Source: a virus. Taken from it: a stretch of 22,002 nt of DNA. Position 1 is the first letter of the stretch; each line of letters begins with the position of its first letter. The position numbers and the translations under genes are program-made. The notes under the pieces were generated by a model. That model did no database searches, was not told the origin of the DNA, and saw only the letters and a program-made list of their open reading frames with translations. This document shows positions 2,179-7,491 of this stretch, in pieces. The stretch spans positions 22,948 to 44,949 of the IMG/VR virus record IMGVR_UViG_3300030380_000254. One strand, 5' to 3'.

Positions 2179-3379
2179 GCATCAGGTGTTGGGCTTCATG
2201 CTCAACCACGAGTTTTACAATAAAGTAAAGAACATTATTACAAAAGATATGTTCGCAGGACGGGATGCTACCATATTCGACGTGATTACCTATGGTCACA
2301 AGGAATACGGTGTCGATATGCACCCTCATCAGGTGGCGGCACTGGTCAGTGACCGCAACCCTGCCATGCCATCTAGCGCAGTACACGAAATATATACCAT
2401 ACTGGACAACCTATCCACGAACATATCTGAGGAGATGGCCCTCGAACACGATGTGGTTAAGAACTTCTGGGTTCGAGACAGAGCCAGACAGATTGGTGAG
2501 AAAGCGATTGCTATCTTCACTGGCGAATCAGAACACTTCGGCGAACTTAAGACGCTTATCGACATGGTTGAAGATGGGCGGATGACAGATAAGACAACGT
2601 ATAGTGAAATGGACAAAGACTTTACACAATTAGTGCAAGAAGAAACAGGTGACCCTGACTTCCCGTTTGATTGGGACTTGCTGTCAGAGCATTTGTCAGG
2701 CATGGACAGAGGCAACCTTGGCATCATCTTTGCTCGTCCAGAGGTAGGTAAGACAACGTTCTGTGCTTTTCTTGCCGCGAACTACGTTAGGCAGAAGCAC
2801 AAGGTGGTTTACTGGGCAAACGAGGAGCCTGCTGAGAAGATTAAGTTACGTATCATCCAATCGTTTTTCGAACGCACACGACAGCAGATGATAGAAGAAC
2901 AGCACACATTACAGCAACGCTACGACGAAGAGATAGCACCATACCTCGTTGTCATGGACTCTGTAGGTACATCTATGGAAGAACTAAACGAATACGCCCA
3001 GCTAAACGAACCGGACGTTATGTTCTGTGACCAGCTTGATAAGTTTAGGGTTTCTGGTGAGTTTAATCGTGGTGATGAACGCTTGAAGGAAACCTATGTA
3101 GTTGCGCGGGAGATTGCCAAGCGTAATAAACTTCTGATATGGTCAGTCTCACAGGCCAGCTTCGAAGCGCACGACAGACAGTTTATCGACTACGCCATGT
3201 TAGATGGTTCTCGAACTGGTAAAGCTGGTGAAGCAGACGTTATCATTGGGATAGGGAAGACAGGAACATCTGAGGAAGAGAATACAGCAAGACACATCTG
3301 TATCTCTAAGAACAAACTAAACGGGTGGCATGGCATGTTTACCAGCCACATAGATGTACATACGGGAGTATACTACTGA
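2141..3379 (+). CDS. DnaB-like replicative DNA helicase
   Basis: This is a hexameric 5'-3' helicase of the DnaB/RecA fold that would unwind the phage fork and work with the separate primase. Residues 1-110 form a helical N-terminal domain like the primase-interacting part of DnaB (LEHQVLGFMLNHEF). The ATPase domain has Walker A ARPEVGKT (198-205), close to ARPSMGKT of E. coli DnaB, a catalytic Glu in ANEEP (228), Walker B PDVMFCDQ (291-298), the sensor Gln in VSQAS (338), and a basic SRTGKAGEAD segment (357-366) near the subunit interface. At 412 residues it is slightly shorter than bacterial DnaB. Its start lies inside the primase end and its stop overlaps the next ATG (TGATG), so translation is probably coupled. 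Confidence 0.93.
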   Translation: MQQESESSQSTLEHQVLGFMLNHEFYNKVKNIITKDMFAGRDATIFDVITYGHKEYGVDMHPHQVAALVSDRNPAMPSSAVHEIYTILDNLSTNISEEMALEHDVVKNFWVRDRARQIGEKAIAIFTGESEHFGELKTLIDMVEDGRMTDKTTYSEMDKDFTQLVQEETGDPDFPFDWDLLSEHLSGMDRGNLGIIFARPEVGKTTFCAFLAANYVRQKHKVVYWANEEPAEKIKLRIIQSFFERTRQQMIEEQHTLQQRYDEEIAPYLVVMDSVGTSMEELNEYAQLNEPDVMFCDQLDKFRVSGEFNRGDERLKETYVVAREIAKRNKLLIWSVSQASFEAHDRQFIDYAMLDGSRTGKAGEADVIIGIGKTGTSEEENTARHICISKNKLNGWHGMFTSHIDVHTGVYY

Positions 3380-3660
3380 TGAATAAGTTACAAGATAAGT
3401 TTCAACAGTTTCATGACAATAATCCAAAAGTGTGGGAACTATTTAAGATGTTCTCTTTTGACGTAATACGTTCAGGTAGAAAGCACTATAGTGTTAACGC
3501 AATCTTTGAACGCATACGATGGCACACAGATATAGAAACAAAATCAAAAGATTCCTTTAAGCTGTCTAACAACCATAGGGCATACTATGCTAGAATGTTT
3601 AATGAAGAGTTTTCAGAGTATAACAACTTCTTTAAGACAAAAAAACTGAGGTCAGAATGA
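3379..3660 (+). CDS. Conserved phage hypothetical protein, 93 aa
   Basis: This is a small soluble protein. The segment ERIRWHTDIET (about residues 45-55) and NNHRAYYARMF (about 67-77) match my memory of a family seen in phages and mobile elements, often beside replication genes, with no assigned role. It has no membrane segment or recognised catalytic motif. The residue pattern suggests a helical, possibly winged-helix-like fold, which is a guess. The ATG at 3379 overlaps the helicase stop (TGATG), and the stop overlaps the exonuclease start (ATGA). Its place between helicase and polymerase suggests a replication accessory role. Confidence 0.8.
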   Translation: MNKLQDKFQQFHDNNPKVWELFKMFSFDVIRSGRKHYSVNAIFERIRWHTDIETKSKDSFKLSNNHRAYYARMFNEEFSEYNNFFKTKKLRSE

Positions 3661-4235
3661 GAGTCTTAACGTTTGACGTGGAGACAACCCACAAGGAGAA
3701 ACCCAATGGTTCATCTACACCCCTGCCGTACTTCGGTAACACACTTGTCTCTGTGGGCTACAAATGGTTGGGCATTGAAGAGGTACACTACCTTTGCTTT
3801 GACCACAGTACCCAGCAACCTAGCAAGGATGGCTTCAATATATTTCAAGATGCCCTAAACCTTGCTGACGTAGTTGTAGGTCACAATATCAAGTTTGACT
3901 TATCGTGGATACGTGAGTGCAACTTCAAGTACGAGGGACATGTGTACGACACGATGGTTGCTGAGTACATCCTTGCCAAGGCAAGACGTTGGTCACTTAG
4001 CCTTTCTGCTGTTGCTGATAAATACGGCGGCGTTCAGAAAGAGAAAGACCTCATCAGCCCCTACTTTAAGGAAGGTAAAACATTCTTTGACATACCGTGG
4101 GATACTATAGTAGAGTACGGGATTGCAGATGTAATCGCTACAGAAGATGTAGCACTAGCACAACTCAAAGCCTTTGGCTCATCGTTTGAGGAACTATTTT
4201 ATGACACTGATACCGACACTAAGATTATCGCTTGA
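3657..4235 (+). CDS. 3'-5' proofreading exonuclease domain of split family A DNA polymerase
   Basis: This is a DnaQ-like/RNase H-fold exonuclease that would remove mispaired 3' ends during phage replication. Exo I is FDVET (D7, E9), Exo II is GHNIKFD (about 75-81), and Exo III is the Y-x3-D pattern in EYGIADVIATED. At 192 residues it corresponds to just the N-terminal part of a Pol I-type phage polymerase. It stops with TGA at 4233-4235, one base before the ATG of the polymerase part, which is in the +1 frame. In HMO-2011 polymerases the two parts are, as I recall, a single chain, so this may be a natural split, an indel or a frameshift site. The start uses an ATGA overlap. Confidence 0.88.
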   Translation: MRVLTFDVETTHKEKPNGSSTPLPYFGNTLVSVGYKWLGIEEVHYLCFDHSTQQPSKDGFNIFQDALNLADVVVGHNIKFDLSWIRECNFKYEGHVYDTMVAEYILAKARRWSLSLSAVADKYGGVQKEKDLISPYFKEGKTFFDIPWDTIVEYGIADVIATEDVALAQLKAFGSSFEELFYDTDTDTKIIA

Positions 4236-4236
4236 A

Positions 4237-5733
4237 ATGACAAGCGTTCTGGCTCACATCGAACAGAACGGCATTAAGATAAACAAAGCAACCCTAGCTG
4301 AGATTCGCGAAGAATATGAACAAGAACTGTTTCAGCTAGAACGCAGATTAAATGAACTAGCCCAGTATGCTATGGGAGATACTCCCGTCAATCTTGACAG
4401 CCCAGACGACAGGTCTATGCTGATGTATTCTTGCAAAGTTGCTGACAAGAGGACGTGGGCTGAGATATTCAACCTTGGTCATGAGATGCGCGGTGCAACT
4501 AAGAAACCCAAGATGCGTAGGCGTATGTCCCGTGCAGAGTTCAAAGGGCATGTGTTGCGAGAGACTGATGTGGTCTACAAGACAGTAGGTTCACAGTGTT
4601 CTAACTGTAATGGCAAGGGTAGATACAACCCATTAAAGAAGGATGGAACTGTTGGAAAAGCTGTTAGAATATGCCGAACGTGTTCGGGTAAAGGTGTGGT
4701 TTATGAGAATACGGGTGAGGTTGCAGGTTTTAAGATGGTTCCTCGTGACGCATTTGATGTTGCGGCGGGTGGTTTTAAGACTGACAAGGAGACACTAGAA
4801 GACATGTCACTGTCCTTGCGGGGTGATGCTCGTGAGTTCGCGCAGTCTTATATACGATACTCTGCCCTGCGAACCTATCTGCGTTCCTTTGTTGAGGGGA
4901 TGGAGAATAACATGGATGGCAACGGATTCATCCACACAGAGTTTATGCAGTGCGTTACGGCAACTGGCAGGTTGTCTAGCCGCAACCCTAACTTTCAGAA
5001 TATGCCTCGTGGTTCTACCTTTGCTATCCGCAGAGCAGTAGAAAGCAGGTTCGAGGGTGGGCAGATATTAGAAGGTGATTATGCACAGCTAGAGTTTAGA
5101 GTTGCTGGTTACCTTGCTAACGACGATGGTATCTTAACGGACGTAGAAGCTGGCACAGACGTTCATAGCTACACTGCTAGTGTGATTGGTTGTACAAGAC
5201 AAGAAGCGAAAGCACACACCTTTAAACCTCTGTATGGGGGTGTTAGTGGTACAGATGACCAGCAACGCTACTACCGGGCGTTCAAGGAGAAGTATCGCGG
5301 CGTTACTGAATGGCACAAGTCCTTACAGAAAGATGCTGTTACCAAGAAAGAAATTACCTTACCATCAGGCAGACAATATGCTTTCCCAGATGCTAGGTGG
5401 ACTGAGTGGGGTACAGCTACCAATCGCACAGCTATCTGTAATTATCCTGTACAAGGCTTTGCTACTGCAGACCTGTTGCCTATGGCTCTTGTCAAACTAC
5501 ACCATGACATGAAGAACATGCAGTCTGTTATTTGCAACACAGTACACGATTCTATTGTAATTGATGTGTATCCCGGCGAGGAAGAGCAGTGTATTCAGGT
5601 TATGTCTAAGGCAATGTTGTGTTTGCCACAGGAGACAAAACGTAGGTATAACAAGGAGTACAGTATGCCTGTAGGAATAGAATTAAAAATGGGAAAAAAC
5701 TGGCTTGACTTAGAAGCTGTGTTTGAGGTATAA
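4237..5733 (+). CDS. polA: Family A DNA polymerase, polymerase part with DnaJ-type zinc finger
   Basis: This is the 5'-3' polymerase of the phage replisome. Motif A is GDYAQLEFRVAG (D281), motif B/O-helix is R321-x3-K325-x3-F329-x3-YG, and motif C is VHDS (H437, D438). TGRLSS (243-248) is also typical. The residue matching E. coli F762 is Phe (F329). Residues 121-153 carry CSNCNGKG and CRTCSGKG, the paired CxxCxGxG motifs of DnaJ, inserted where Pol I has thumb/exo-linker sequence; I know this from HMO-2011-type phages. The frame is open upstream to 4159. I use the ATG at 4237, since the only earlier start in frame is a TTG at 4174. No good Shine-Dalgarno is visible. The upstream in-frame LIPTLRLSLEM looks like conserved linker, suggesting the exonuclease gene was once joined. 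Confidence 0.93.
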   Translation: MTSVLAHIEQNGIKINKATLAEIREEYEQELFQLERRLNELAQYAMGDTPVNLDSPDDRSMLMYSCKVADKRTWAEIFNLGHEMRGATKKPKMRRRMSRAEFKGHVLRETDVVYKTVGSQCSNCNGKGRYNPLKKDGTVGKAVRICRTCSGKGVVYENTGEVAGFKMVPRDAFDVAAGGFKTDKETLEDMSLSLRGDAREFAQSYIRYSALRTYLRSFVEGMENNMDGNGFIHTEFMQCVTATGRLSSRNPNFQNMPRGSTFAIRRAVESRFEGGQILEGDYAQLEFRVAGYLANDDGILTDVEAGTDVHSYTASVIGCTRQEAKAHTFKPLYGGVSGTDDQQRYYRAFKEKYRGVTEWHKSLQKDAVTKKEITLPSGRQYAFPDARWTEWGTATNRTAICNYPVQGFATADLLPMALVKLHHDMKNMQSVICNTVHDSIVIDVYPGEEEQCIQVMSKAMLCLPQETKRRYNKEYSMPVGIELKMGKNWLDLEAVFEV

Positions 5734-5770: not shown

Positions 5771-6607
5771 ATGGGTAACTTAGAAACTGTAGAAAATGAA
5801 TTTGCGATTAGTATTTCTGATGATAAAAACGCTTTGTTGGCAGCACTTGGTCAGGATGGCGTTGCGGAGAGCAGGCAATCTGGCCCGTCTAGTCTTCGTA
5901 TTAACTACGATGCGGACACTGAAGAGGGTCACACGTTAAAGCGTGGTACTTGGAAAGTTTATAATGGAACAGAGATGGTCTATGCTGACTCTGTGTTTAT
6001 CAATCCGATGCTACGAACCTACGAGTATTCTATCTATGACCAAGAAGAGGGGGCATTTACTTGTCGCTCTGTTCAGCGAAAAAAGATGACGGAGACTTTC
6101 CCAGATAATTCTGGTGGGTTCAAGTGTGGTAGACTGGTTCGTTCTGAAGAAGAAAGTCTAACAGACGATGACCCAAGGTTGTTGCTGAGTAAGTCAGTAA
6201 CGTGTAACATCATTGTTTATGGGCAGCTTGATATGCCAAACGCCGTCAACGCTGCTGGGGAAGCCTCTCCTGTAGAGAACCTTCCGTTTGTTGGTTACTT
6301 CAAGCGTTCTGGTTTCCGCCCTATCAATGACTTTGTACAGCAGAAGTTGGGTAATAAGATACCGTTGCCTACTGCGTATATTGAACTGAAGACTAAGCGA
6401 ATGGCTAACGGCGGTGTTACCTACTGGATACCGCAACCTGAGTTGGTGAAGGAAGTTCAGTTCACACCAGAACGCAAGGAACTAATGCAGAAGTTTTACG
6501 ATACCGTAGCTGCTGCGAACTCCAAGCTTCTTGGCGAACATAAAGATGCCGTCAAGCAGAACGTGTCTAATGAAGATATCGACCTTGCTAATCGGTTAGC
6601 GGGATGA
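5771..6607 (+). CDS. Conserved replication-module protein of unknown function (possible DNA-binding accessory), 278 aa
   Basis: I recall similar proteins beside the polymerase in marine phages, beginning with a short acidic segment, then KNALLAALG (about 19-27), a mainly beta-type core and a final helical tail; none has a firm function to my knowledge. No nuclease, ATPase or helicase motif is visible, nor a zinc site or membrane segment. Its place between polymerase and a RecB/Cas4-like nuclease is where a single-strand-binding or annealing protein would be expected, but this is context only, and the C-terminus (DLANRLAG) is not the acidic tail of SSB or gp2.5. GGAGA 5 bases upstream fixes the ATG at 5771 rather than the TTG at 5723. 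Its stop overlaps the next start (ATGA). Confidence 0.8.
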   Translation: MGNLETVENEFAISISDDKNALLAALGQDGVAESRQSGPSSLRINYDADTEEGHTLKRGTWKVYNGTEMVYADSVFINPMLRTYEYSIYDQEEGAFTCRSVQRKKMTETFPDNSGGFKCGRLVRSEEESLTDDDPRLLLSKSVTCNIIVYGQLDMPNAVNAAGEASPVENLPFVGYFKRSGFRPINDFVQQKLGNKIPLPTAYIELKTKRMANGGVTYWIPQPELVKEVQFTPERKELMQKFYDTVAAANSKLLGEHKDAVKQNVSNEDIDLANRLAG

Positions 6608-7491
6608 TTGCTCTTGTAGAAATACAGGACTTCTTAAAGAAAGCAGGGCGGGGGGAGATTGACTCTTCCCGCTTTGACGACCTGATAGAGCAGTTTGGGG
6701 AAGATTGTAAAGACTCCTTGCGAAAGCAATTGTCATCTCGTGGTGGCTATCGTATTCGTATGTCAGGTCTGGGCCGTCCTCTGTGTCAACAGAAGATGGA
6801 ACAGCAGGGCCACACTCAAGAGGTTGCGTATAATGATATCATGCGTTTTCTTATGGGCGACCTTGTTGAGGCGATTGCCGTATTTGTTATGAAGGCTGCT
6901 GGTGTTAAGGTGGTTGATACCCAAACACCTTGCGAACTTCAACTGGGTGAGAAGAAGATTAAGGGTACTCTTGACCTCATCATGGATGATGGAGAAAAGA
7001 AAGTTTGGGATATCAAGTCTACTAGCCCGTGGTCTTTTGACAATAAGTTTTCAGGACGAGGTGGTTACGATGTAATCAAGGAAGATGACCCTTTTGGTTA
7101 CATCATGCAGGGCTATCTATATTCAGAATCACAGGACATGCCCTTTGGCGGTTGGATAGCAATTAATAAGTCGTCTGGCGAGTGGGATTTTGTTGAAGCA
7201 CCTGCTGACCAAGAAGAGGACCGTAAAACGTACATTGCTGACGCTAGGAGCCGCGTGGAGAGCCTTCTTAAGGATAATAAGTTCAAGATACCTTTCGAGG
7301 CAACTGACGAATCCTACACCGTTAAAGGCGAGAAGATTTTTACGGGTAACAAACTAATGCCAAAGACCTGCACCTTCTGTTCATTCAAGGAGAACTGCTG
7401 GAAGAACGCAGAATACCACGATAAGATTACGTCTAAAGCTAAGTTCCCACCGAAGGCTTGGTACACTAAGATAGTCAACCGGAGTATCTGA
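6604..7491 (+). CDS. Cas4/RecB-like PD-(D/E)XK exonuclease with four-cysteine (Fe-S type) set
   Basis: The core follows the RecB-type nuclease pattern: GDLVEA (85-90), GTLDLIMD (121-128, D124), VWDIKST (134-140, D136 and K138) and the QGYLYS Gln/Tyr motif (169-174). One Cys lies before the core (C61 in GRPLCQQK) and three follow it (C256, C259, C265 in CTFCSFKENC). This one-plus-three spacing is that of Cas4 and AddB, where the cysteines hold a 4Fe-4S cluster; the cluster here is inferred. There is no helicase domain and no CRISPR array, so a role in phage recombination or host DNA breakdown for nucleotides is more likely than spacer capture. HMO-2011-type phages encode an exonuclease in this position as I recall. 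Length is 295 residues; the start is an ATGA overlap. Confidence 0.87.
   Translation: MIALVEIQDFLKKAGRGEIDSSRFDDLIEQFGEDCKDSLRKQLSSRGGYRIRMSGLGRPLCQQKMEQQGHTQEVAYNDIMRFLMGDLVEAIAVFVMKAAGVKVVDTQTPCELQLGEKKIKGTLDLIMDDGEKKVWDIKSTSPWSFDNKFSGRGGYDVIKEDDPFGYIMQGYLYSESQDMPFGGWIAINKSSGEWDFVEAPADQEEDRKTYIADARSRVESLLKDNKFKIPFEATDESYTVKGEKIFTGNKLMPKTCTFCSFKENCWKNAEYHDKITSKAKFPPKAWYTKIVNRSI

Follow-up and report, generated by a model that had tools for sequence, protein, structure and literature searches.

The DNA polymerases (DNAPs) of HMO-2011-type phages, among them those of HMO-2011, HTVC033P and CRP-1, carry an exonuclease domain, a DnaJ-like insert with a double CXXCXGXG motif and a polymerase domain, in this order. 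In all eight HMO-2011-type isolates compared here the enzyme is a single chain of 678-716 aa, which agrees with what the earlier note on this DNA had said of the type. A survey of HMO-2011-type DNAPs considered only those longer than 540 aa with at least 80% coverage, as stated in the passages of PMC9038755 that were covered.

Family A polymerases in two ORFs have been described in other phages. The OM43 phages MEP401 and MEP402 encode such an enzyme, and split polymerases occur in most group I genomes of the same study, whose authors think an intron possible (passages of PMC10580990). The DNA polymerase gamma of cyanophage Mic1 lies in two ORFs with 298 bp between them, which the authors call an intron (passages of PMC7156551). 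Split Pol III alpha has been described in jumbo phages, in the portions of the literature covered.

The locus described here lies in a stretch of 22,002 nucleotides of IMG/VR virus record IMGVR_UViG_3300030380_000254, which is referred to as the window and to which the coordinates refer. Its domain order is that of the HMO-2011-type DNAPs, but in place of their one chain it has two genes in two frames (Table 1).

Table 1. Features of the exonuclease-polymerase locus, in positions of the window
Feature	Position	Strand	Remarks
Exonuclease gene, 192 aa	3657..4235	+	Pol I-kind 3'-5' exonuclease; PF01612, E 1.6e-9
Exo I, D7-V-E9	3675..3683	+	read from sequence
Exo II, N77-IKF-D81	3885..3899	+	read from sequence
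Exo III, Y154-GIA-D158	4116..4130	+	read from sequence
Shine-Dalgarno GAGGA for the polymerase, inside the exonuclease gene	4188..4192	+	GAGGA in 139/139 distinct junctions
Polymerase gene	4201..5733	+	510 aa, family A without exonuclease domain; PF00476, E 1e-48
Start codon ATG of the polymerase gene	4201..4203	+	polymerase frame; ATG in 135/139, GTG in 4/139
Overlap of the two genes, 35 nt	4201..4235	+	polymerase frame conserved, IPTLRLSL; exonuclease-frame tail variable in most of the clade
Internal Met codon, the start in the earlier note	4237..4239	+	non-ATG in 21/79 loci and 16/139 distinct junctions
DnaJ-like zinc motifs CSNCNGKG and CRTCSGKG in the polymerase subunit	4597..4695	+	pair in 152/164 distinct relatives
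Catalytic Asp of motif A, DYAQLE	5077..5079	+	read from sequence
Motif C, HDS	5545..5553	+	read from sequence

The two products and the conservation of their layout

Frame 0 runs from ATG 3657 to TGA 4233-4235 and bears Exo I, II and III, and the +1 frame relative to it, which is open from 4159 to 5733, encodes the polymerase. The start codon of the exonuclease shares bases with the stop of the preceding ORF (3325-3660), in the sequence ATGA. Shortly behind the polymerase, at 6604-7491, lies a homologue of a Cas4-domain exonuclease (phrog_1990, E 1.2e-26). Farther along, between 12578 and 19512, the minus strand holds two very long ORFs of 1608 and 702 aa, for which no PHROG match was found at E 0.001.

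In Pfam the first product is assigned to DNA_pol_A_exo1 and the second to DNA_pol_A, with a below-cutoff match to DnaJ_CXXCXGXG. Both products match the DNA polymerase family phrog_17 at successive profile positions (670-827 and 842-1235), and this family is the best PHROG match of the exonuclease (E 9.2e-27). We take the exonuclease to be of the DEDDy type. The Exo II and Exo III patterns are found in all 136 distinct exonucleases and the Exo I pattern in 131, the other five having YDVE or IDVE. All 164 distinct polymerases show motifs A, B and C, and each has Phe at the O-helix position. Twelve polymerases (L372-L383) miss the double CXXCXGXG pattern at the second motif; the three of these that were inspected keep the four Cys and have lost one Gly of that motif. 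In the parts of either gene that are read in one frame only, most base differences fall on third positions of codons. Since the catalytic motifs are kept in both proteins, both look active.

A structure was modelled for one chain made by artificially joining the two frames at F181. The model has a mean pLDDT of 88.8 and a pTM of 0.82, with pLDDT at 77 for residues 171-180 and at 75 for residues 181-190, the two blocks next to the junction, which is flanked by predicted helices at 148-173, 177-183 and 186-204. The best PDB match in Foldseek is Klenow (1kfs; TM 0.73 by target and 0.64 by query, rmsd 8.6, 20% identity), so the artificially joined chain is predicted to take a Klenow fold, a result that cannot bear on whether the subunits meet because the chain was joined by hand. 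As the model and its Klenow match place the junction there, the cut in the modelled chain falls between the exonuclease and polymerase domains.

The layout was followed through IMG/VR. The first-round relatives were the best 80 of more than 600 stretches, with polymerase identities of 74-96%, a choice that favours near relatives. Both parts lie within the contig in 77 of these 80, the remaining three being cut by a contig end, and every one of the 77 complete loci places the polymerase in the +1 frame relative to the exonuclease. A second scan, with the most distant first-round relative as query, gave 79 new loci, some of them on contigs already in the first set; both parts are present in 76, all with the +1 relation. 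A pattern scan covered at least 120 stretches, of which L276, L284 and L319 contain neither of the two parts and are regarded as chance matches, and L314 has the exonuclease part only, its stored stretch ending there. Taken together, the scans gave 334 split loci, among which 139 distinct junctions can be told apart, a count from which L161 (see below) and loci cut near the junction were dropped. Counts are given as distinct junctions, genes or proteins, the same contigs having been returned by several scans, and they are counts of related sequences, not of independent events. The two-frame layout is thus real and natural and is no sequence error, because it is found in 139 distinct junctions. 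The earlier note had read the exonuclease part as closing at TGA 4233-4235 and the polymerase as lying in the +1 frame open from 4159, and had named relatives with the same layout as the mark of a natural split; the reading is confirmed and such relatives were found in 77 of 77 and 76 of 76 complete loci. Of the explanations that it offered, the one-base error is excluded and the true two-subunit polymerase is the one that the data favour.

The polymerase start and its Shine-Dalgarno sequence

GAGGA stands 5, 8 or 11 nt before an in-frame start in all 139 distinct junctions, the spacing to ATG 4201 in the window being 8 nt. The four GTG starts were recognised by reading frame, and the replacement of ATG by GTG in these junctions supports the function as a start because GTG is still a start codon. 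In the first set, which comprises 79 junctions (window included, the two cut loci L075 and L076 dropped), GAGGA and an in-frame ATG are present throughout, with a spacing of 8 nt in 78 and of 5 nt in one. As a control, 60 distinct intact junctions were scanned for six Shine-Dalgarno-like motifs; in 4 of them one of these motifs precedes an in-frame ATG or GTG by 4-12 nt. The window itself has 362 plus-strand ATGs, with GAGGA at about that distance in 5 and AGGA, GAGG or GGAG in 27. The Glu that follows Phe in the exonuclease tail is encoded by GAG in all 147 distinct full-length exonuclease genes, compared with 914 of 2059 Glu codons elsewhere in the same genes, a tally that, the genes being related, is not to be read as a probability. 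The codon behind this Glu is GAA in 109, GAG in 30 and GAT or GAC in 8 of the 147. The polymerase frame is conserved from the start codon onward, as (L/I)PTLRLSL, ahead of the exonuclease stop, and the polymerase aligns with its intact relatives from the start residue on. On sequence grounds, ATG 4201 is the supported start of the polymerase.

The earlier note had placed the polymerase ATG at 4237 and had found it without a clear Shine-Dalgarno sequence. A start at 4237 is rejected since the codon is not kept: it is ATG in just 58 of the 79 first-set junctions. The Shine-Dalgarno sequence seemed absent because the wrong ATG had been picked. Taken as a whole, the two-frame split described in that note stands and its start codon does not; of the two readings that it thought worth testing for want of a Shine-Dalgarno sequence, the error is excluded and the frameshift is unsupported. 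A start at TTG 4174, which the longest ORF call would give, is less likely since GAGGA is spaced for ATG 4201; in-frame TTGs further upstream are frequent among the relatives, for of 148 distinct sequences 109 have one at -27 and 108 have one at -15.

The exonuclease and polymerase genes overlap by 8-68 nt in all 147 distinct full-length exonuclease genes. In the groups with overlaps of 35, 38 and 41 nt (20, 22 and 66 sequences) the exonuclease frame is clearly more variable than the polymerase frame. Both frames are well conserved in the 44-nt group (37 sequences), where the exonuclease tail nearly equals the polymerase frame in conservation, a point that counts against the two-gene reading preferred below.

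Relation to HMO-2011-type phages

The contig of the window, 47 kb in length, encodes homologues of the DNAP, capsid and TerL by which HMO-2011-type phages are recognised in the passages of PMC9038755 covered, and CSNCNGKG and CRTCSGKG correspond to the partial DnaJ domain with two CXXCXGXG motifs given there. Identity to HTVC033P is 62% for the coat, 53% for the portal and 50% for part of TerL; in the DNAP it is 46% for the polymerase part and 35% for the exonuclease part. With 192 and 510 aa the two proteins lie below the length cut-off of the HMO-2011-type DNAP survey. Since the polymerase subunit of 510 aa is shorter than 540 aa, we infer that this filter left the split clade out; a length filter of this kind, as given in the passages of PMC9038755, can omit an entire clade. 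The exonuclease and polymerase of single-chain phage Pol A share one reading frame, but those of the window are in two frames and the polymerase has a separate start with a Shine-Dalgarno sequence.

The polymerase is intact in 79 of 80 HTVC033P-like IMG/VR loci. The exception, L161, is interrupted by a private frame break that lies within the exonuclease domain (L161:1990-2620), away from the domain border. A tree built from 52 representatives unites the 42 split rows (L161 aside) in one clade with an SH-aLRT of 100, which adjoins the HTVC033P group, the other isolates lying outside. The tree was built quickly and three isolates sit on long branches in it, so that only the split clade itself is relied on. 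With one split clade beside the HTVC033P group, a single loss of the one-chain form would explain the pattern. The sampled set contains no locus at about 50-58% identity to the window, and an intact intermediate could fall there. In the intact polymerases of CRP-345, CRP-1 and CRP-235 (L084, L085 and L087) GAGGA occurs in a Glu-Glu codon pair near the exonuclease-polymerase border, with no in-frame start 4-12 nt behind it. This GAGGA is possibly a pre-adaptation for the split.

The GC content of the contig is 44.5%, whereas that of the putative SAR11 subgroups is 31.9-35.4% (passages of PMC9038755), which would make SAR11 an unlikely host. A host search in bacterial genomes was uninformative: one of 18 stretches, from a Planctomycetaceae MAG, encodes a distant relative. 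The label 'marine' rests on the cultured relatives and the papers, not on the sample data of the contigs.

Alternative readings, proposed enzyme and comparison with known systems

A one-base error of sequencing or assembly, in a gene that is normally intact, would give such a layout in a single contig, and private breaks do occur in this material. The contig of the window has one in a tail gene, a homologue of HTVC033P gp67, that lies beyond the window on the minus strand (G000:C1, about 594-2064) and is broken over two frames; the break in L161 is another. The tail-gene break is found in none of 80 relatives, all of which read the gene in one frame without a stop; it is a private indel and perhaps an assembly error, and it illustrates how a private error or mutation looks, unlike the exonuclease-polymerase junction. 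Against the 139 distinct junctions with two frames and a tree in which all 42 rows of the clade are split, an error at the junction has practically no chance of being the explanation. A programmed +1 ribosomal frameshift is a weightier alternative and on balance a quite improbable one. Some or all of the polymerase would then be made as an exonuclease-polymerase fusion, with the shift in the overlap or at GCU UGA. Such a shift would fit a polymerase frame that is open 15-93 nt upstream of the start in all 148 distinct junctions, with a zone open in both frames that is never shorter than 41 nt. It would also fit the position of the exonuclease stop, which relative to codon 4237 is -4 in 130 of 139 junctions. 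In the polymerase frame the Leu before this stop is CTT in 132 of 141 rows, whereas CTT makes up 20% of Leu codons in these genes, a stronger retention of the stop than the polymerase frame by itself would require. We read this bias as selection for the exonuclease end; it would also fit a stop used in frameshifting. Shine-Dalgarno-like motifs inside genes can themselves stimulate frameshifting, as in RF2 and dnaX. However, the stop is not fixed, being at -16 in four junctions, at -37 in one and at +23 in four; a CTG codon abolishes the usual stop in L185, L186, L188 and L238, whose exonuclease is nine residues longer, and in L196 the stop begins only 5 nt behind the first base of the polymerase start, there GTG. 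The start is kept in all junctions even though the exonuclease stop moves in 9 of 139, which indicates that the exonuclease end is free to shift. The stretch between GAGGA and the start is varied, with 37 different octamers among 63 distinct 27-mers with a spacing of 8; TTT occurs in 15 and TTTT in 2, there is no run of A, C or G, and no conserved run precedes the polymerase start. Nor would a frameshift need a start at a fixed distance from GAGGA. An internal start is favoured because GAGGA with an in-frame ATG or GTG behind it persists in every one of the 139 junctions while the exonuclease stop moves, and the frameshift at GCU UGA A that the earlier note had considered is unsupported, the stop being missing or elsewhere in 9 of 139. 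To judge from the sequences the layout is most likely no frameshift product; a minor fusion product from frameshifting is possible.

The remaining alternative grants two separately made proteins and holds that the polymerase acts alone, the exonuclease being a free nuclease with another task, so that no holoenzyme forms. In its favour, the exonuclease tail is variable in most of the clade. In addition, PHROGs families named 'DNA polymerase exonuclease subunit' exist, and a published gene table lists, in the part covered, a 'DNA polymerase exonuclease subunit' beside a separate DNA polymerase gene. We nevertheless consider a free nuclease unlikely, for the exonuclease domain is shared with the single-chain relatives, where it takes the same place in the domain order, it is adjacent to the polymerase in all 77 complete loci among the best 80 of more than 600 stretches, and Exo I-III are kept in all 136 exonucleases, if the five with YDVE or IDVE at Exo I are included.

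The reading that we prefer, and regard as highly probable, is that two overlapping genes, each translated on its own, encode a family A replicase whose two proteins probably re-associate into a Klenow-like holoenzyme. Ribosomes would translate the 192-aa 3'-5' exonuclease up to TGA 4233, and other or translationally coupled ribosomes would begin the 510-aa polymerase at ATG 4201 in the +1 frame, served by the Shine-Dalgarno sequence that lies within the exonuclease gene. The two proteins would probably re-associate non-covalently, and proofreading would then be carried out by a separate subunit, as by epsilon for Pol III. Expression, coupling, association and proofreading are what we infer from the sequences, and the likely function would be that of a two-subunit enzyme that proofreads in trans. 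A wider reading, plausible although somewhat short of probable in our judgement, is that a widespread clade has a natural two-subunit family A replicase proofread in trans by a separately translated exonuclease, in which the strength of editing could be set by the protein ratio. A Pol III-like arrangement would thereby have been reinvented in the Pol I family, one ancestral frame break having made a ribosome binding site out of a Glu-Glu codon pair.

In this phage family A polymerase proofreading appears cleanly separated from synthesis at the domain border, and the split persists throughout a clade that comprises at least 164 distinct polymerase proteins, the most divergent of which share about 60% identity with the window. 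The system is suited to testing proofreading in trans and the effect of the exonuclease-polymerase ratio on phage mutation rate. In E. coli Pol III the polymerase alpha works with epsilon as a separate proofreading subunit, as is proposed here, but that polymerase belongs to family C and its exonuclease is of the DEDDh type. The exonuclease of the window also matches phrog_403 (E 2.7e-14, residues 2-174) and phrog_192 (E 1.9e-7), both more weakly than phrog_17; these two families are named 'DNA polymerase exonuclease subunit' and were compared by profile match and name alone.

Among split polymerases, that of the ICP2-like Vibrio phage Saratov-15 (MT767883; L442:2456-4549) has its polymerase region in two adjacent hypothetical CDS of about 400 and 295 aa. 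The likeness lies in the two adjacent CDS, but by their coordinates these are in the same frame, unlike the genes of the window, and from their lengths the cut is probably inside the polymerase domain. MEP401 and MEP402, which are marine phages, resemble the window in having a family A polymerase in two ORFs; in the passages of PMC10580990 covered, however, their cut is inside the polymerase domain with a small ORF between the parts, whereas that of the window is at the exonuclease-polymerase border and the genes overlap. Mic1 likewise has a family A polymerase in two ORFs, but according to the passages of PMC7156551 it is cut inside polymerase motif A, whereas the polymerase of the window is cut between domains with no gap. 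An insert of the intron or inserted-ORF kind seen in MEP401 and Mic1 is absent from all 147 distinct full-length genes, where the parts overlap. No description of a cut between exonuclease and polymerase domains with overlapping genes was found in the passages searched. For HMO-2011-type phages an exonuclease-polymerase cut is undescribed in the passages of PMC9038755, PMC10580990, PMC7824862, PMC9069017 and PMC11348598, and likewise in those of PMC3853054, PMC11163716, PMC12926913, PMC7156551 and PMC6918029. As far as these passages reach, family A polymerases cut inside the polymerase domain are known, and what is new is a cut at the domain border with overlapping genes.
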